A stretch of DNA of 64,000 nt from Streptococcaceae bacterium (GTDB lineage: Bacteria; Bacillota; Bacilli; Lactobacillales; Streptococcaceae): assembly GCA_031253335.1 (NCBI GenBank), contig JAIRWF010000027.1, positions 1-64,000 on the forward strand, given 5' to 3'. This document shows, one piece after another, positions 12,845 through 22,170 of this stretch. The notes under the pieces were generated by a model. That model was not told the DNA's origin, did not search any database, and worked only from the letters and a program-made list of their open reading frames with translations. Positions within the stretch are counted from its first letter, which is position 1. Every line of letters begins with the position of its first letter. Position numbers and translations under genes: made by a program.

Positions 12845-13010
12845 TGGACTTTCACAATGAAAGAGGATATAATGAAGGTGGTTTTAGCTAACGCTTATTA
12901 TGAAGAAGTTAAAAAAGTATGTAAGGGAAAAACTCAGCACGGCGAGTCGGCCTGATATACTAAGCATATCAGCTTTTGACTTCCCAGTCAAAAGCATACT
13001 CATAGAAAAG
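12845..13010 (+). promoter_or_regulatory. cas9 promoter and structured leader
   Basis: TGGACT (12845-12850) and TATAAT (12868-12873) are 17 bases apart, giving an RNA start near 12880 and a leader of about 138 bases. The leader holds GTTTTAGC, identical to the first eight bases of the CRISPR repeat, and a complementary AGTTAAAA 17 bases after the stem arm. It also has two perfect hairpins: CTGATAT/ATATCAG at 12951-12971 and GCTTTTGACT/AGTCAAAAGC at 12972-12995. Neither has a T run. A 27-codon frame (12872-12955) starts within the -10 box after AAAGAGG, so it needs an upstream promoter to be translated. Confidence 0.55.
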
Positions 13011-13017
13011 GTGAAGC

Positions 13018-16000
13018 ATGACAAAAGAAAGTAAAAACTACACCATCGGTCTTGACATCGGGACCAACTCAGTCGGCTGGGCCGTCATCCAAGACGACTT
13101 TAGTCTTGCCCAAGGCAAAAAGAAAATCATCGACATCGCGCCAGACGGCACGACCACCAAGCGCAGCTCGCGCACCAATCTCTGGGGTGTCCGGCTTTTT
13201 GACGAGGGCCAAGTTGCGGCTGATCGTAGGCTCAAACGGGGCATGCGTCGGCGCATTGCACGCCGCAAAAGCGCCTAAACTATCTCCGCGCCATTTTTGA
13301 GCCGGAAATCCTCAGCTTTGACGACAGCTTTTTCATCCGCATGGACGAGAGTTTCCTGCAAAACGACGACACCGTCAAATCCGTCAAAACCCGCTATCCG
13401 CTTTTCAACGGCAAGATAGGCACTGGCGAGACCTACGAAGACGAAGTGGCTTATTACGCCAAGTATCCGACGATCTACCACCTGCGCGATCGCTTGATCA
13501 AGGACACGAGTCAAGCTGATTTACGCTTGGTCTATCTCGCTATACATCACATTCTCAAGTATCGCGGGCATTTTGTCAATCAAGGCCAAGTCTTTGACTT
13601 GACCAAGCCGATTGATGTGTCAGAGAGCCTCTCAGAAGTCCTCGTCAAATTTGACGAAAACTCAGCCTTTGACTGGAGATTTGACGAAGAAAAATTCTCG
13701 GATGCCAATGAAATTCTGACCAATCGCCGCACCTCAAAGTCCAAGAAAGCCTTTGATTTGACGGAACTTTTCAAACCTTCAGAAATCGATCAAAATTTTG
13801 ACAGCTACAGCAAAAAAGAGCTGGACGAAAAAGACAAACAGCTTAAAGCCCTCTTCACTGCCCTCGTTGGCAATGGTATTGACCTTGCGAAAATTTTTGA
13901 CAAGAAAGAAGACTACAAGCCTTTAGACGAAAACAATTATCCCAAAGCTGGCGATTTCAAATACAGCAACGAAAATTTTGATGAAAAACTCGCCGAAATC
14001 GAGTCTAGCATCACGGCAGAAGAATTTGAAATTCTCCAGAGTGGGAAAGCCGTCTTTGAAGCCATCGTCCTCTCAGGCATTCTGACGGCGGACACCCTCT
14101 CTGCCTCTATGGTCGAGAAATACGTTGCCCATTTCTGCCAACTCCAAGCGCTCAAACGCTTTGCCCATGAAATCGGCGACGACTTTTACAAATCCCTTTT
14201 CGCAGACGGCGGCATCTACAGTAATTACGTCGAGGGCACGGGAAATCCCGCCAAAACCACACCGCGAGAAGACTTTTATAAAGCGCTGAGTAAAGCTTTG
14301 GATGAACTCAAAGACTTGACCGATACACAAACGCAGTTCATCGACTCCGTCAAATCCGACATTGAGTTCGAGACCTATCTTCCCAAGCAACGTCAATCTG
14401 ACAACGGCGCCATCCCATACCAAATCCATGAGCACGAGCTCGTCAAAATTCTTGAAAATCAAGGTCAGTATTATCCATTTTTGCGAGAGACCGTCACGTC
14501 AGAAATCGAAGACGAAGATGGCAACGTCAGTCAAAAAGACCAGTACAAAATCCAAGCTCTCTTCAAGTTCCGCATTCCTTACTATGTCGGCACCCTTTCT
14601 ACCAATCCTGGCTGGGTGCGTGATAGCTCAGGAAATCTTGTCAAATCCGACGAAAGCCCCGCAAAGAACGCCTGGTTGGTCCGAAAGTCTGAAGAAAAGC
14701 TGACCCCTTGGAATTTTGACGCCGTCATCGACAAAAACGCCTCCGCCGTGAATTTCATCGAGCGCATGACGAATTTTGACACCTACCTCCCGTCAGAAAA
14801 AGTCCTCCCGAAAAATTCCCTTCTCTATCAAGAATTCACGATATACAACGAACTCATGATTTCGGGCTATTTTGATAACGGCCAAAAGGTCTATTTTGAC
14901 CCTGCCACCCGCCAAGCCATCGTCAATGACCTCTTCAAAAAGCACAAAAAAGTCTCCGCGAATCAGCTCATTGACTTCCTAGAATCTGAAGGCATTGCCC
15001 ATTTTTCAAGCCCACGTGATCTCTTTGGCATTGACACATATGTCAAGGCGCCTGGCTTCAATACGACCTACAGCACTTACCTGGATCTCATCAAAGCCGG
15101 CCTCACTGACGAAGAAATCACCGCCCACCGCGCCCAGCTTGAGCAAATCATCAAGTGGCAGACGATTTTTGAAGATAAGAAAATCCTCAAGAAGACCATC
15201 AAAGCGCAAAACTGGGATTTCATCACGCCAGAAATTCTCAAAAAATTGGCCAACAAACACTACACCGGCTGGGGCCGCCTCTCTGAAAAACTTCTGGATG
15301 GCCTTCACACCTCAAACGGCAAAACCATCATCGAAGAGCTGAAAACAGGCAAATACGATAACTTCATGCGCCTTTTGGAAGACCCTGAAATCGCCCAACA
15401 AATCAAAGACGCCCAGCTCGCTGAAGTGGATGAGACCAAGCTCAATTATGGCATGGTCGCTGACCTGGCAGGCTCTCCAGCCATCAAAAAGGGCATCTGG
15501 CAGAGTCTTCAAGTCGTCGCCGAGCTTGAGAAAGTCCTGGGGCGTGAGAACATTGCTAAAATCGTCGTTGAAATGGCGCGCGGCAATCAAGGCGGTCGCA
15601 CAACCACACGGCAAAAGCAAATCGAGAAATTCTACGAGAAATTCAGTGAAAAGACGGGCGAAGACGTCCCGTCAGACATTCGCGACGAATTCAACGCCCA
15701 GCCGCAGCACGCTTTTGACTCTGAGCGCCTCTTCCTCTATTTCCTCCAAAACGGCAAGTGCATGTACTCGGGCAGGGACTTAGACCTTGACCGCCTCAGC
15801 GACTACGAAGTTGACCACATCGTGCCTCGGACCTACATCAAAGACGACAGTTTTGATAACAAAGTCCTTGTCCTCAAGTCCGAAAACCAAAATAAGGGCG
15901 GCGACGTTCCCTCCAAAGCGATTATCGCAAAGATGCGCGACTACTGGGAACTTCTCGCCAAAGCCGGCCAAGTTTCCCCACGCAAGCTCGCGAACCTCAA

Positions 16001-17411
16001 GCGTGGCAGTCTTTCAGATGACGCCAAAGAAGGCTTCATCAAACGTCAACTAGTCGAGACCCGTCAAATCACAAAGCACGTGGCCAATCTCCTTGCCAAG
16101 TACTTCGAGAGTGCGAATACCGAAATCCTCACTCCAAAAGCTGGTCTCACCCATGACTTCCGCGAAGGTGTCGTTTATATTCCAGCCAAGGAGTTTGACT
16201 TTGAACATGCACAGCAGCTAAACTACGCTTACGACCACAAGCACGTCAATCAAGGCGAAATCACAGACACGACCTACAACGACAGCAAGTTCGTCAAGCT
16301 CTACATCCACGATGGCTTCCCCAAAAATCGTGACCTCAACGACTATCACCATGCGCATGATGCTTATCTCAACGCGGTCGTTGCCAACTATGTCTATGAA
16401 ACTCGCCCTGACCTAAAGAAAATGTGGATTTACGGGGACTATCAACGCAAGTCACAGCGTGAAATGGGCAAGCACGGCGCACAGCACAAAGACTTCTTCA
16501 AGCAGCTCTTGACTGATATGAAAGATGAACGTTGGTTGCGCTATCTCTATGATGAAGAGGCAAAAAAGAGCTATGAGTCCGGGGAGTTCTGGAAGCGAGA
16601 TGACGTGTTTGAAACGATTGAAAAGACACTGAATCTTAGAAATGTGAACATCGTCAAGAAAACCGAGCATCAAATCGGGAAATTTGGCGATGAGACGGTC
16701 TATAAGGCTGATCCGACAGTCAAAAACTATGCCACAGGCATCAAGCAGCATCTTGATCCCAATCGCTATGGCGGACCCAAAGGCCCAATTTCTGCCTTTG
16801 CCGTCGTCGTGCGGAGTACTAAAGGGCGCAATCAAGTCATCAAAGCCCTCTCGATTCCTTCCATGCTGGGTGAGCGCTACCGCAAGACCTCAGACAAACT
16901 CGCTTTCGTGCAAGCGCTCTACCCGACAGAGAAAGTCAGCGCAATCCTCGTTCCCGAAGTCGATAAATATACCAAGTTTGAAAACCAAGGTGTCGTCCGC
17001 TTGCTATCAAGCTACCAAGAAGCCCTCAAAGCCGATGCGCTGACGCTGACTATGGACGAAGTCCGATCACTCAGTCAAGAAAACTCAGACCTCCTCCCTC
17101 TCTTTGATAAAATCACCGCCTATCTCAAGCGCAATCAAGTCTATGGCGACAAACACCTGACAGACTGGGAAACCAATGTGCGCGAGGAATTCTTAGCCTA
17201 CGACCACGCGACACAAGCCCAATTCATCAAAGACGCTTTTACCATCTCTCACACCGGGACGACCAACGCCAAAGGCCTCGTCAAAGGTAAAATCGGCATA
17301 GCCTCTGGTCAGCAGCAGCACAAATCAAGCGCCATCGACGTCATCACCGACGGCACCACCCTCATCCACCAATCCATCACCGGCCTCTACGAGACACGGC
17401 GGAAGTTGTAA
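13018..17411 (+). pseudogene. cas9: cas9 (type II-A), split by a one-base deletion
   Basis: RNA-guided DNA endonuclease, broken into 86 and 1356 codons. Fragment 1 (13018-13278) has the RuvC-I motif [13 protein letters not shown] with the catalytic Asp at residue 13 and the Arg-rich bridge helix ([12 protein letters not shown]). It stops at TAA 13276. Continuity with the frame [14 protein letters not shown] is restored by adding one A to the run at 13267-13270, giving 1464 residues in all, slightly longer than S. pyogenes Cas9. The rest is open: RuvC-II IVVEMARG, HNH EVDHIVPRTYIKDD (His near residue 826 of fragment 2), RuvC-III HHAHDAYLNAVV and a full C-terminus. All catalytic residues survive, so the break is recent or a sequencing error in a homopolymer. 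The start has AAAAGG nine bases upstream. Confidence 0.93.
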
Positions 17412-17465: not shown

Positions 17466-17687
17466 ATGCTTGAAATGCGAACAAGAAAAGTTGGCGCGTC
17501 TGTCGCCATCACGCTCCCCAAAGAGCTAAATATCCCAGTGGATAAAGATTTTATCGTCTCAAAGACAGCGGACGGCAGCTTGATTTTTGTCCCTAAAATT
17601 AAAAATCCTTTAGATGAATTGCCAGATGATTTTGTAATGGCTGATGAGTTTTCAGAGGCTGTCCTGACGGAAAGTGAGATTGATTGA
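17466..17687 (+). CDS. mazE: MazE-like AbrB-family antitoxin
   Basis: Small acidic protein of 73 residues with a swapped-hairpin AbrB N-terminus (MRTRKVGASVAITLPKELNI) and an acidic C-terminal tail (DELPDDFVMADEFSEA) of the type that blocks the toxin. It should bind DNA at the palindrome over its own promoter and neutralise the toxin encoded next. The ribosome site AGGAGG is eight bases upstream. The stop overlaps the toxin start by one base (TGATG). The pair sits between cas9 and the adaptation genes, an uncommon location. Confidence 0.85.
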   Translation: MLEMRTRKVGASVAITLPKELNIPVDKDFIVSKTADGSLIFVPKIKNPLDELPDDFVMADEFSEAVLTESEID

Positions 17688-18037
17688 TGTTTATCCCAAA
17701 GCAAGGCGATATCATCTGGATCAATTTTGATCCCTCCAAAGGCCGAGAAATCAAAAAAAGACGCCCTGCTTTGGTGGTCAGCTCGACCCTCTACAATCAA
17801 AAGCTAAAGTTTGCGATGATTTGCCCGATTACGAGCACCATCCGTAAAGAGAGCATTTACTATACCCTCAAAAATTATAAAACCAAAGGTCAAGTCGTCA
17901 CAGCACAGCTCTATTCCTTCGATTTAACCGATAAAGCGAACCGACAGGCTGAATTCATCGAAACGATGGAAGCCATCGACTTTGTCCAAGTCAGCCAACG
18001 CATCGACGCCTACTTTGACTTTCAAAACTTTCAATAA
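17687..18037 (+). CDS. mazF: MazF/PemK-family mRNA interferase toxin
   Basis: Sequence-specific endoribonuclease toxin, 116 residues. Family marks are the N-terminal PKQGDIIWINFDPSKGREIKKRRPALVVS, where the conserved Arg-Pro after the basic loop is clear, and the later ICPITST and VVTAQLYSFDL segments (the usual Q-hT strand). The ATG at 17687 overlaps the antitoxin stop, implying coupling. A TTG codon three bases earlier is a less likely start. No truncation is visible, so the pair is probably functional. Confidence 0.88.
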   Translation: MFIPKQGDIIWINFDPSKGREIKKRRPALVVSSTLYNQKLKFAMICPITSTIRKESIYYTLKNYKTKGQVVTAQLYSFDLTDKANRQAEFIETMEAIDFVQVSQRIDAYFDFQNFQ

Positions 18038-18061: not shown

Positions 18062-18328
18062 ATGAAAATTGACCAATTACGTGAGAAAGAACTCCAAAAT
18101 CCAGAGTTTGCCAAAGGTTACACGATTGTAAAGGAAAAACTCGCTTCAGCCGTTTCCCTCTATAAGGCGGGTGAAGCGGCAGGATTGACCCAAAAAGAAT
18201 TGACCGAGAAAGCCGGCACGACATAAGCGACGATTGCCCGCATCGAAAGTGGTGAAAACGTCAGCTTTGAAAAACTCGCCGAAATCGCACTCTCCATGGC
18301 TAAAAAACTAACGGTGACCTTTGCATAA
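18062..18328 (+). pseudogene. HTH (Xre/HigA-like) antitoxin with a nonsense codon
   Basis: An 88-codon frame encodes an N-terminal helix (MKIDQLREKELQNPEFAKGY) and a helix-turn-helix (AGLTQKELTEKAGTT-x-ATIARIESG). At 18224-18226 the codon is TAA where family members normally have Gln (CAA), so a single C-to-T change truncates the protein in the middle of the recognition region. The frame then stays open to 18326. Proteins of this type normally pair with a RelE/HigB toxin, but none is adjacent. The next gene is a Fic protein. The start lacks a good ribosome site. Confidence 0.75.
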
Positions 18329-18357
18329 TAGCGAAATTTAAAAAAGAAAGGAGGAAT

Positions 18358-19167
18358 ATGATGAACTTTGAGGCTTTGACTCAAAAATTAGCGAAATTGA
18401 ATCACTATCGCCCACTCAATGCGATTGAGCTAAAAGCACTCAACGAAAATATCAAAGTAGAGCATATCTGGTCAAGTAATGCCATCGAAGGCAATACGCT
18501 AACTCTAAATGAAACACGCCTCGTCTTGGAAAATGGCCTTACCGTTTCAGGTAAACCGCTCAAAAATTATTTAGAAGTGCTAGATTTGAGTGCAGCCTAT
18601 GATTATGTGGGAAGTCTCGCCTCAAAAAAGCAGAAGCTTGAAAGTAAGGATATTCGTGACATCAATCGTTTGGTCACTTTGAAAACAAGCGAAGAAAGTT
18701 CTTTGGCTGGCGCTTTTCGGAAAGTTGACGCCTATCCCAATGGTTTTCCCGACGAAAAATATAATTCTCCTTTTTTCATTTCTGAGGACGTCGAAGATTT
18801 TATTATTTGGTATAATGCTGAAAATCACTTGCACCCTGTTGAGAAAGCCGCCCAGACTCACTTGAAACTCGTCAGTATTCATCCTTTTGCAGATGGGAAT
18901 GGCCGCACGAGTCGCCTCTTTATGAATTTTGCCTTGATGACCGCAGGCTATCCGATTATTAATATCCAGCCGGACCAAGAAAGCCGGACTGCTTATATAA
19001 GTGCTTTAAGGGAGTTGCGCAATGATAATCATCCAGAAAAATTTACAGCGCTTGTTGCAGATTACGTGGATAAAACGCTGGACTTTATGTTGAAAACACT
19101 TGAACTAGCTGAGAAAAATCAATCTGATTTTGAAAAATATAAAGCCACAAGTGAACTTCCCGAATAA
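18358..19167 (+). CDS. Fic-domain protein (AMP transferase family)
   Basis: 269-residue Fic/DOC protein. The catalytic motif HPFADGNGRTSRLFMN is near residues 179-194, matching HxFx(D/E)GNGRxxR. An N-terminal SSNAIEGN (about residues 39-46) fits the self-inhibiting helix motif (S/T)xxxE(G/N) of class II Fic proteins, which do not need a separate antitoxin. Family members usually transfer AMP to target proteins; the target is unknown. GAAAGGAGG lies just before tandem ATG codons. It follows the broken HTH gene by 29 bases and ends at a terminator. It may act as an addiction or abortive-infection element in the cas region, which is an inference. Confidence 0.9.
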   Translation: MMNFEALTQKLAKLNHYRPLNAIELKALNENIKVEHIWSSNAIEGNTLTLNETRLVLENGLTVSGKPLKNYLEVLDLSAAYDYVGSLASKKQKLESKDIRDINRLVTLKTSEESSLAGAFRKVDAYPNGFPDEKYNSPFFISEDVEDFIIWYNAENHLHPVEKAAQTHLKLVSIHPFADGNGRTSRLFMNFALMTAGYPIINIQPDQESRTAYISALRELRNDNHPEKFTALVADYVDKTLDFMLKTLELAEKNQSDFEKYKATSELPE

Positions 19168-19345: not shown

Positions 19346-19477
19346 TATAATTAATACGGCTTCCTAGCCTAGAAAGGAGGTCATATGTTCAATTTCTTAC
19401 AGAAACTAACGATTGCTGTGTCGCCAGTAATAGTTAGTACTCTTCTTGCTTACTGGCATAACCACAAGAAGAAGTAA
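19346..19477 (+). CDS. Fst-like type I toxin (small membrane peptide), with promoter
   Basis: A 30-codon gene (19385-19477) preceded by an ideal ribosome site (AAAGGAGG, six bases before the ATG) and an extended -10 promoter (TGATATAAT, -10 at 19346-19351). The peptide has a short N-terminal helix, one hydrophobic segment (TIAVSPVIVSTLLAYW) with a central Pro, and a basic tail (HNHKKK). This matches the Fst/Ldr toxins, which insert into the membrane. A convergent antisense RNA gene follows and shares its terminator, the classic par layout. I extended the entry to include the promoter; the coding part starts at 19385. Confidence 0.75.
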
Positions 19478-19514
19478 ACTAGGCAGGTTTGCCCCACAAC
19501 GCTTTTAGAGTGAA

Positions 19515-19601
19515 AAAAATACCTCAGTCATTGCAGGACTGGGGTATTTGTGTTCAATTCTTACTTCAAAAATATTATAACATTTTTTAGTATATTGTCA
19601 A
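19515..19601 (-). ncRNA. Antisense RNA gene of the Fst-like locus
   Basis: A minus-strand promoter has TTGACA (19601-19596), a 16-base spacer and TATAAT (19579-19574) with an upstream TG. The predicted start is near 19567. The RNA runs about 50 bases leftward to the hairpin AAATACC-CAGTC/GACTG-GGTATTT (19517-19549), which on this strand is followed by seven T residues. The toxin mRNA ends at the same hairpin from the other side. The size and arrangement match RNA II of the plasmid pAD1 par system. Confidence 0.72.
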
Positions 19602-19639
19602 TTAAAAAGAGCGATGTCGCATTACTTTTACAAGTTGAT

Positions 19640-19684
19640 TGCCTCTGCGACTTGCGACTTTAGTCGCTTAGCGAGCAAGGACAT
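19640..19684. repeat. Right module of the hairpin-rich repeat family (copy C)
   Basis: TGCGACTTGC-GACTTTAGTC-GCTTAGCGAGCA aligns with modules at 27131-27176 and 60788-60832. The inner stem is GCGAC/GTCGC here and GCCAGC/GCTGGC at 60.8 kb. The flanking unpaired bases are conserved while the stem pairs change together. Confidence 0.6.
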
Positions 19685-19696
19685 TCCAAAAGTAAA

Positions 19697-19860
19697 TGAA
19701 AACTCCTCATGCGATGACGCCAGGCAGAAGCCTCGAGGAGTTCTACTTTTGGATACGGACTTGGTTACCTGAGTTCAGTCAGGGCCTTATTTTAACGAGT
19801 ACTTCGGATGCCGAAGCACCTAAAATACTTGCCGTGTTGAATAGAATGCCTCTAACAACA
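19697..19860 (-). ncRNA. tracrRNA
   Basis: On the minus strand, GGCATTCTATTCAACACGGC (19850-19831) is the exact complement of 20 bases of the CRISPR repeat. It is followed by AAG (the usual bulge), an extra hairpin (19826-19795), the lower-stem arm TAAAAT (19794-19789), AAGGC, a nexus-like stem CCTGA/TCAGG, GTCCGT, and a terminal stem AACTCCTC/GAGGAGTT ending near 19698 in TTTTC. The promoter is strong: TAGACA, 17 bases, TATAAT with an upstream TG. It is transcribed divergently from cas1. The 3' end is uncertain because the T run is short. Confidence 0.88.
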
Positions 19861-19865
19861 AGACC

Positions 19866-19898
19866 ATTATAGCATTTCTCGCAAGATTTGTCTATAAT
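19866..19898. promoter_or_regulatory. Overlapping divergent promoters of tracrRNA and cas1
   Basis: The tracrRNA promoter (minus) uses -10 TATAAT at 19871-19866 and -35 TAGACA at 19894-19889. The cas1 promoter (plus) uses TATAAT at 19893-19898. The tracrRNA -35 overlaps the cas1 -10 by two bases, so both promoters cannot easily be occupied at once. The cas1 -35 would fall on the tracrRNA -10. Confidence 0.7.
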
Positions 19899-19904
19899 AA
19901 AGTC

Positions 19905-20771
19905 ATGTCTTTTAGAACAGTAACCGTCAATACACATTGCAAACTTTCCTACAAAAACAATCACTTGATTTTCAAATCCGCAGAGCACACGGAGTCGATT
20001 CATATCCCTGAGGTTGATGTTCTGATTTTGGAGACGACCGATATTGCGCTCACGACCATGCTGATGGCAAAGTTGATTGAGGAAAATGTCCTCGTCATTT
20101 TTTGCGATGAAAAGCACCTCCCGTCCAGTATGGTCACGCCTTTTTACGCGCGGCACGACTCCAGCCTCCAACTTGCGAAGCAAATTGCTTGGGATGAGGA
20201 GAAAAAAGCAAGCGTCTGGACGGAAATCATTCGCCAGAAAATTGCGAATCAGCAACGTTTTTTGGAGTTCCAGCACTTTGAGAAGCAAGCTGGGCAAGTT
20301 GAAGAAATGCTTTCTGGGCTTGAGCTTTTTGACCCTAGCAATCGTGAAGGGCACGCTGCAAGGACTTATTTTGGCGCGCTTTTTGGCACGAAATTCTCCC
20401 GTGAGCAAGAAAACAGCATCAATGCGGGCCTTGACTATGGCTACACGCTCCTCATGAGTGTTTTCGCGCGTGAAATCGTAAAATGCGGCTGCATGACGCA
20501 GCTCGGCCTCAAGCACGTCAATCAATTTAATGAGTTCAATCTGGCGAGTGATCTCATGGAGCCTTTTCGTCCGTTGGTGGATACGATTGTCTATCGCGAG
20601 AAGCAAAATTCTTTTGACTATATCAAGCGCTATCTCTTTGAAATTTTTGAGAAGACCTACAGCTATCGTGGTCAAGAGATGTACCTGACCAATATCGCCC
20701 AAGACTATGTGAAGCGTGTGATTGACTGCTTGCACGGAGAGAAAAAAGAAGTCCCGGAGTTTAGATTGTGA
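19905..20771 (+). CDS. cas1: CRISPR-associated integrase Cas1 (type II-A)
   Basis: Metal-dependent nuclease/integrase that inserts new spacers with Cas2. It has 288 residues, normal for type II. The conserved metal ligands appear in [14 protein letters not shown] (Glu near residue 149), [17 protein letters not shown] (His near 205) and MEPFRPLVD (Glu near 220). TATAAT ends six bases before the ATG and there is no ribosome site, so it is probably leaderless. cas2 starts within its stop codon (GTGA overlap). It is intact, although cas9 in the same locus is broken. Confidence 0.96.
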
Positions 20772-21160
20772 GCTATAGGTATATGAGAATGATTTTGATG
20801 TTTGATTTGCCGATGGACACGCCGGACGAGAAACGCGCCTATCGAAAATTCCGCAAATATCTCTTGTCGGAGGGCTTTATCATGCACCAGTACAGCGTGT
20901 ATAGCAAGCTTTTGCTCAATAGTACAGCGAATACCGCACTTGTAGCCCGTCTTAAAAAGCACAATCCCAAAATGGGCAATATCAGCGTACTCACGGTCAC
21001 GGAAAAGCAATTTGCACGGATGATTTTACTGCATGGCGAGCGCGACACCAGTGTGGCTAATAGCGACAAGCGGGTCGTCTTTTTGGGCCATGACCCTTTG
21101 GAAGATTTTAATAAAGATGAAGAAGAGGAGGGTGCTGAAGATGATGAAGCTAAACTTTGA
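20768..21160 (+). CDS. cas2: CRISPR-associated Cas2
   Basis: Small ferredoxin-fold partner of Cas1 in spacer integration. It shows the type II-A N-terminus [21 protein letters not shown], with the conserved Asp after the first strand, and [14 protein letters not shown]. At 130 residues it is longer than usual because of a very acidic tail ([13 protein letters not shown]). Part of that tail is encoded by bases that also hold the ribosome site of csn2 (GAGGAGG). The start is GTG at 20768, overlapping the cas1 stop; an ATG at 20783 or 20789 is possible. Confidence 0.94.
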
Positions 21161-21827
21161 ATTTTTAGATGAGCCGCTGGAAATCAATGGTCTCACGAGT
21201 GTGATTCTCGAGGATAAACGGATTTTTGCCAAAGTCATTCAGGAACTCTACCGCTACACGGGAGAAGTGGACTACCTGAAGCTTTTTGATGAGAGCTATA
21301 AGTCCTTAAAATCTGCGGAACTCATGATTATCACAGATGTTTTGGGCTTTGATGTGAATTCTGCGAGTGTTCTGAAGCTCATCTATCAAGATTTGGAGCT
21401 GCAAATTTCTGAGAAGCCCGAGGTCAAGACGGAGATTGAAAATCTCTTGCAGGAAGTCACGAATCTTGTCAATGCAGAATTGCTGGATTTTGAGATTGAC
21501 CTGGAGTCCGATGAAATTACCTTTCCTGAGGTCTTCAAGGTGCTGGGCGTCCAGGTCGAGATCAAAAGTGACACGATTTTTGAGCGGATGGAAGAGATCA
21601 TCGAGGTTTTTAAGTATCTCTCCAAAAAGAAACTCTTGATTTTCGTGAACTGCGGGAGCTACCTGACGGCAAAAGAAGTCAACTACCTGCAAGAGTATAT
21701 CGGCCTGCATGAAATCAGCTGTCTCATGCTTGACAATACCCGATTTGACGGGATTTCTAAGCGTTTTGTGCTGGATGGAGACTTGATATTACTGGAAGAA
21801 AGTGGTAAAATAAAAACTAAAGATTAG
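21141..21827 (+). CDS. csn2: CRISPR-associated Csn2
   Basis: Ring-forming, DNA-end-binding protein needed for spacer acquisition in type II-A systems. At 228 residues it is the short Csn2 form of S. pyogenes. It begins [15 protein letters not shown], has acidic calcium-binding-type regions ([16 protein letters not shown]), a helix [29 protein letters not shown] and ends [10 protein letters not shown]. It overlaps the end of cas2 by 20 bases. The leader and array begin about 110 bases downstream. Its presence assigns the system to subtype II-A. Confidence 0.93.
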
Positions 21828-21936: not shown

Positions 21937-22170
21937 GTTTTAGCGCCGTGTTGAATAGAATGCCCCCAAAACCGTCAAAAATTATAAAAAAACTGTATGC
22001 TGGTTTTAGCGCCGTGTTGAATAGAATGCCCCCAAAACCGCCCGAAATTGTCACAACGTCGCCGATTTGTTTTAGCGCCGTGTTGAATAGAATGCCCCCA
22101 AAACCATATGTCAAGAATAAAGTATTAAATTTGTGTTTTAGCGCCTTACGGATATGCTAGTTTTTTCACC
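21937..22170 (+). CRISPR. Type II-A CRISPR array, three spacers
   Basis: Three identical 36-base repeats at 21937-21972, 22003-22038 and 22069-22104. They start GTTTTAGCGCCGTGTTGAAT and end GCCCCCAAAAC. The spacers are exactly 30 bases each (21973-22002, 22039-22068, 22105-22134). A degenerate terminal repeat at 22135 keeps only about the first 12 bases, which fixes the direction with the leader on the left. All three spacers begin with C, so the repeat could also be read as 37 bases. The array is short, fitting an old or rarely used system. Confidence 0.97.

Follow-up and report, generated by a model that had tools for sequence, protein, structure and literature searches.

A hairpin at the repeat:anti-repeat bulge of a type II-A tracrRNA, predicted in two genera of the Streptococcaceae

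The tracrRNAs of Streptococcus type II-A systems (S. pyogenes type; RF02348) share with the RNA described here an array-complementary anti-repeat, an AAG bulge, a UUAAAAU lower arm, a nexus of the AAGG...GUCCGUA type, a terminal hairpin and a location in the cas locus. They differ from it in that AAG and UUAAAAU are contiguous in the relatives that we read, whereas here they are split by 32 nt. Removing the bulge from the guide RNA abolishes the function of S. pyogenes Cas9 (PMC7337959). Surveys report absence of the bulge, variation in nexus length and non-canonical metagenomic folds (PMC6882279, PMC7606464, PMC10278012); some published systems have no bulge (PMC6882279), and in metagenomes a good many tracrRNAs do not adopt the canonical structure (PMC10278012, whose supplement may include a case similar to ours). 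Natural growth of a hairpin inside the tracrRNA module is known from the extended-nexus tracrRNAs of Mollicutes (stems of 3-18 bp, PMC6882279) and of some streptococci, but there the nexus is extended, not the bulge. Engineered hairpin insertions also go elsewhere, into the tetraloop or stem loop 2 (PMC7716540). We found no published report of a natural hairpin at the bulge in a body of literature that lacked important surveys, and its novelty is provisional.

A tracrRNA anti-repeat split by 32 nucleotides

The stretch of DNA that we analysed (the window, 64,000 nucleotides from a Streptococcaceae bacterium) belongs to contig C22 of a 1.66-Mb assembly of 44 contigs that is 81.6% complete. It contains a type II-A CRISPR-Cas locus in which Pfam and PADLOC matched Cas9, Cas1, Cas2 and Csn2 around a tracrRNA gene on the minus strand, starting at about 19860. 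The features of the locus are these:

13018..17411, plus strand: cas9, which a frameshift close to 13260-13290 divides into two frames (86 and 1356 aa)
17466-18037, after cas9: small-protein/MazF-like pair
18358..19167, plus strand: Fic/DOC gene, between cas9 and the tracrRNA gene
19694..19742, minus strand: terminal hairpin AACUCCUC...GAGGAGUU and U-rich tail (-19.0 kcal/mol, z = -2.8)
19753..19788, minus strand: nexus region AAGG...CCGUAUCC, an extended loop with CCUGA/UCAGG
19789..19795, minus strand: lower arm TTAAAAT, predicted to pair with GUUUUA(GC) of the repeat
19796..19827, minus strand: 32-nt hairpin-forming insert TATTTTAGGTGCTTCGGCATCCGAAGTACTCG, separating AAG from the lower arm
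19828..19830, minus strand: AAG, first part of the bulge (in relatives AAG or GAG stands directly before UUAAAAU)
19831..19850, minus strand: anti-repeat (upper arm) GGCATTCTATTCAACACGGC, 20/20 against the reverse-complemented repeat of the array in this locus
19866..19894, minus strand: putative tracrRNA promoter, TAGACA, 17 nt, TGC-TATAAT (11/12 consensus bases, TG ahead of the -10)
19905..21827, plus strand: cas1, cas2 and csn2, type II-A adaptation genes with open frames
21937..22104, plus strand: CRISPR array, three full repeats GTTTTAGCGCCGTGTTGAATAGAATGCCCCCAAAAC

The 20-base match of the anti-repeat holds for all three full repeats of the array, the neighbours are those of a type II-A system (cas9-cas1-cas2-csn2), and lower arm, nexus and terminal hairpin follow the anti-repeat in the order found in type II-A tracrRNAs. 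The promoter was recognised by its consensus match alone (TAGACA-17-TATAAT). Extended nexus loops also occur in three relatives (L148, L160 and L195). What the RNA of the window lacks is the usual short contiguous bulge between the arms. The first-pass annotation had reported 32 extra bases here, at 19826-19795; we confirm them and place them at 19827-19796, the earlier placement lying one base later and describing the same insert, which has a T on either side. TTAAAATAAGG and then the rest of the tracrRNA follow directly after it.

The insert folds at -13.7 kcal/mol, against a mean of -4.6 for shuffled sequences (z = -4.6; 0/200 shuffles as stable), in agreement with the hairpin drawn in that annotation. 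Two folds are nearly equal in energy, with a gap of 0.2 kcal/mol. Stem B, which is the one described previously, pairs GGUGCUUCGG (19820-19811) with CCGAAGUACU (19807-19798) at -13.7 kcal/mol. Stem A, at -13.5 kcal/mol, pairs AGUAUUUU (19829-19822) with GAAGUACU (19805-19798) and continues into GGUGC(UUCG)GCAUC (19820-19807), closed by a C(UUCG)G loop. We also considered the insert as a mobile or repetitive palindromic element. It has no second copy in the genome within 2 mismatches and is therefore not a repeated mobile element; a plasmid collection gave no match, and neither the anti-repeat with its insert nor a relative of the Cas1 was found among viral contigs, where the 63 matches to a 15-mer came from a query too short for specificity.

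Some observations on the surroundings are given for completeness. The cas9 frameshift, which may be a real mutation or an assembly error, separates the initial RuvC segment from the remainder of the gene, and the catalytic motifs otherwise seem to be present. Since the resident cas9 is frameshifted, CRISPR activity in this genome is doubtful and the system may now be off. Between cas9 and the tracrRNA gene lies a cluster of small toxin-antitoxin-like genes, including the frame of an HTH protein, interrupted by a stop (18063-18330), beside the MazF/PemK-like toxin pair and the Fic gene. In the region 19386-19601, a 30-residue hydrophobic frame on the plus strand (from 19386) and a minus-strand promoter of perfect sequence, TTGACA-16-TATAAT, face each other across a terminator-like hairpin; the arrangement resembles an Fst-type type I toxin-antitoxin pair. 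A degenerate last repeat, GTTTTAGCGCCTTACGGATATGCTAG, is seen at about 22135-22160, followed by a run of T. In a protospacer search with spacers 1 and 2, spacer 1 had no match in viral contigs and spacer 2 matched only Klebsiella phages, weakly, which we take as chance. Two genomes of the same genus (G019 and G026) have arrays that use another repeat, and no tracrRNA was seen on their examined contigs.

A hairpin at the same point in a second genus

A counterpart was found in one other genome, G067, of another genus in the same family. The elements on its contig C164 (cas1, tracrRNA, Fic, cas9) are arranged as in the window, the Cas9 frame is uninterrupted (1334 aa), and TGCTATAAT stands at the promoter position here too. 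The tracrRNA reads GGCATTCTATTCAACACGGC AAG TATCCTTTGGGTACTCG TTAAAATAAGC, with an anti-repeat identical to that of the window over 20 nt, and its junction can be written AAG[UAUCCUUUGGGUACUCG]UUAAAAUAAG, that is, with a 17-nt hairpin at exactly the insertion point seen in the window. This hairpin, AGUAUCC(UUU)GGGUACU, folds at -6.6 kcal/mol (z = -4.4). The two RNAs differ in the length of the hairpin (17 and 32 nt), in the AUUUUA segment, which G067 lacks, in nexus and terminator, and in the clade of the Cas9 that they accompany.

The ends of the two inserts are identical (AAGUAU and GUACUCGUUAAAAUAAG, GUACUCG). Both can form a common 7-bp stem, which in the window is stem A, with five identical pairs and two compensatory ones (C-G to U-A). 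Pairing in this stem is 100% in both and drops to 36-50% after sliding one arm by 1-3 bases. In a shuffle control of the covariation 128/500 shuffles did as well, a control that has no power with two sequences only; because only two members are known, the covariation is support and not proof. Taken together with the position, these features indicate that the G067 hairpin is homologous to that of the window and that the insert is no private accident. The loci share 71% identity in Cas1, 77% in the Fic protein and 38% in Cas9, and are therefore old relatives rather than recent copies. The G067 contig stops inside cas1, and an array with a repeat matching the anti-repeat was not found in the assembly, which is 85% complete.

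The suggestion of the first-pass annotation that the insert might be a damaging one, taken here as decay of a locus already dead, has to be judged against this counterpart. For such decay speak the cas9 frameshift, the array of three repeats and a degenerate one, and the stop inside the neighbouring HTH frame of the window. Yet the homologous hairpin, with its compensatory changes, is kept at the same point beside an intact Cas9 frame, the anti-repeat is 20/20 in both loci, the stems are perfect and not of a kind that decay builds, and the insert has no second genomic copy. Decay is thus unsupported and mostly refuted, and we regard it as highly improbable.

In the other related tracrRNAs that we read, the junction is contiguous. 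A covariance model of canonical tracrRNAs aligned the G067 RNA with a single insertion, of 17 bases, located precisely where AAG would meet UUAAAAU. A second model, built from the two hairpin forms, matched 49 of 335 family genomes, and insert-sized spans at tracrRNA loci were confined to the window (87 nt) and to G067 (75 nt); in 18/18 other matches whose sequence we inspected, the junction was uninterrupted. The same was read by motif in 27 related loci bearing Cas9, a search that favours contiguous forms, and in the tracrRNAs of three Cas9 relatives (L031, L032 and L033), of which L032 has the first half of its repeat, GUUUUAGCGCCGUGUUGA, in common with the window and carries no insert. The splitting of the anti-repeat at the bulge that Cas9 contacts thus sets the window and G067 apart from the other related junctions that we read. 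Neither the canonical model nor an anti-repeat pattern found a canonical tracrRNA elsewhere in the assembly of the window, 81.6% complete as it is, so that within the assembled part the refutation named by the first-pass annotation was looked for with a negative outcome.

Rfam gave no match in the whole window at the gathering threshold, and RF02348 itself matched neither window positions 19400-19910 (at E up to 10) nor L003 (at E up to 1). The same model scores 88.7 bits on L148 and 60.6 bits on the canonical tracrRNA of Lactococcus insecticola, with a gathering threshold of 70. An order-wide search with the pattern GCAAG-gap-TTAAAATAAG was uninformative, control matches being about equally frequent by eye, and in the 30 loci kept from it tblastn found no Cas9 or Cas1. 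A tracrRNA remnant suspected by eye upstream of cas9 (12880-12990) was supported by neither Rfam nor the canonical model.

Predicted folds and the Cas9 partners

The folds given here are secondary-structure predictions on protein-free RNA, in which competing duplex folds were compared by direct energy evaluation. When the tracrRNA is paired with its repeat, a three-way junction is predicted in both the window and G067. Its elements follow in the order upper helix, one A, hairpin, one C and then GUUAAAAU, paired with GUUUUAGC of the repeat. The duplex keeps the bulge bases (AA...GU) as well as the lower stem, which forms with a probability of 0.77-0.89 for the window RNA and of 0.88-0.99 for that of G067. 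The prediction for the hairpin-free L032 has the same G:C8 and U:G7 pairs, with AA alone bulged, and we therefore read the hairpin as growing out of the AA bulge without disturbing the pairs on its flanks.

The first-pass annotation had also noted that the AUUUUA at the start of the insert could pair with the lower arm, and had proposed from this a self-inhibited tracrRNA or a switch, in which the insert would hide the lower arm from the crRNA until opened. The pairing is borne out by prediction: in the free window tracrRNA, UAAAAU has an unpaired probability of 0.05-0.08 (about 95% paired), within an extended hairpin of -16.0 kcal/mol. The regulation built on it is weakly supported, since in free G067 tracrRNA the AAAAU stays open (0.98-1.00 unpaired). 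In the window, too, the lower stem still forms once the repeat has bound the 20-nt upper arm: the duplex with stem B (-42.1 kcal/mol) or stem A (-41.9 kcal/mol) is better than the fold with the hidden lower arm (-39.5 kcal/mol), the gain being about 2.5 kcal/mol. No ligand or partner is apparent, and a switch seems to us a very unlikely function.

By kinship the host of the window falls in the family that holds Lactococcus and Streptococcus. The closest Cas9 that we found to that of the window is from Lactococcus insecticola (62% identity), whose cas9 appears altered or truncated at its 5' end (L030:9700-14400). The tracrRNA of this species shares the lower arm UUAAAAU and 18/20 anti-repeat bases with that of the window, but it joins GAG directly to UUAAAAU and lies on another contig (L196:4490-4590), away from the cas genes. 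The Cas9 proteins of the window (13341-17411) and G067 (L042:1635-5639) fall in different clades, while cas1, Fic and the 5' parts of the tracrRNAs are sisters; on these grounds cas9 was probably exchanged in one of the two loci while the tracrRNA and the adaptation genes stayed.

The nexus sequences also bear on this pairing of RNA and protein. Relatives of the window-type Cas9 (L. insecticola and L031-L033) have a nexus AAGC...GCGUA, and those of the G067 type AAGGC...GUCCGUA. The window nexus (19753-19788) is AAGG...CCGUAUCC and that of G067 (L042:700-730) is AAGC...GCGUAAGC, so that the types look crossed, each hairpin tracrRNA having the one usual for the Cas9 clade of the other. This may reflect an imperfect fit between tracrRNA and Cas9 in both loci or compensatory evolution of two nexus pairs. 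As for the bulge, it is contacted in S. pyogenes Cas9 by Tyr325, His328, Tyr359 and Asp364; at the aligned positions the Cas9 of the window has Y, H, Y, E and that of G067 has F, H, Y, E, and neither set goes beyond the variation among relatives without the hairpin.

Readings of the hairpin

The explanation that we favour, and hold to be rather probable, is that of an inherited hairpin at the bulge contacted by Cas9, giving a guide RNA with a three-way junction and the normal contacts left in place. The bulge between repeat and anti-repeat would have gained a hairpin that was inherited and kept as a structure. The crRNA repeat would pair with the upper and lower arms, the hairpin standing out between the two helices. 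AA and GU would be retained on its flanks, where G7-C8 of the repeat can pair with GU as in L032. With the lower stem formed and the hairpin pointing outward, the usual contacts could stay accessible to Cas9. Under this explanation the RNA would be made, loaded into Cas9 and tolerated, and the hairpin would have been kept for being helpful or at least no hindrance. Several points weigh against it. A hairpin at the bulge might not be tolerated, because the bulge of S. pyogenes is intolerant of removal (PMC7337959); tracrRNA and Cas9 may be mismatched, because the window and G067 each have a nexus that departs from the type of their closest Cas9 relatives; and the window combines a frameshifted cas9 with an array of three full repeats, while no array with this repeat was found in the 85%-complete assembly of G067.

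A stronger form of this explanation would give the guide RNA a functional third arm under selection, the bulge hairpin serving for docking or tuning at the bend contacted by Cas9, where it might, for example, favour one Cas9, recruit a partner or time the loading of the crRNA; this would be a new tracrRNA architecture, kept through the exchange of cas9, and we consider it unlikely. It is likewise doubtful, in our judgement, that the hairpin is a neutral passenger, inserted once, facing outward and tolerated without benefit, its pairing kept since an unpaired stretch would harm binding to Cas9. The wide differences in hairpin length (17 and 32 nt) and sequence over a fixed base would suit such a passenger, as would its occurrence in only 2/49 genomes matched by the model, which argues that the hairpin is not needed in general. 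Its persistence over a long divergence (cas1 71%, Cas9 38%) speaks against it.

Scarcely credible is a natural single-guide RNA, in which the tracrRNA would load Cas9 alone and be guided by its anti-repeat to the cas promoter: S. pyogenes tracr-L is an established precedent for a tracrRNA able to form a scaffold-like fold alone (PMC11417352), the predicted fold of the free window RNA resembles the scaffold of an sgRNA (a lower stem UAUUUUA/UUAAAAU, a bulge of 3 nt, an upper stem of 10 bp and the nexus), and TCAGCACGGCGAGT at 12934-12947, followed by CGG upstream of the cas9 start at 13018, matches the end of the anti-repeat at 12/14 bases, but this best site is mismatched at the fourth PAM-proximal base and so lacks a PAM-proximal seed match, no model recognises the site as tracrRNA, tracr-L functions with an 11-nt match (PMC11417352) and owes its fold to an upstream extension from a second promoter whereas the self-pairing part lies inside the anti-repeat in the window, and the sgRNA-like fold is not conserved because G067 is without the lower stem.

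Both hairpin forms escaped the Rfam model, which shows why genuine tracrRNAs can be overlooked in searches by homology. If the inherited, outward-pointing hairpin is the right explanation, the bulge would be a possible site for adding RNA elements, which bears on the flexibility of Cas9 guide RNAs. A natural bulge hairpin, kept in two genera, also predicts the existence of Cas9 proteins able to work with a guide that has a three-way junction.
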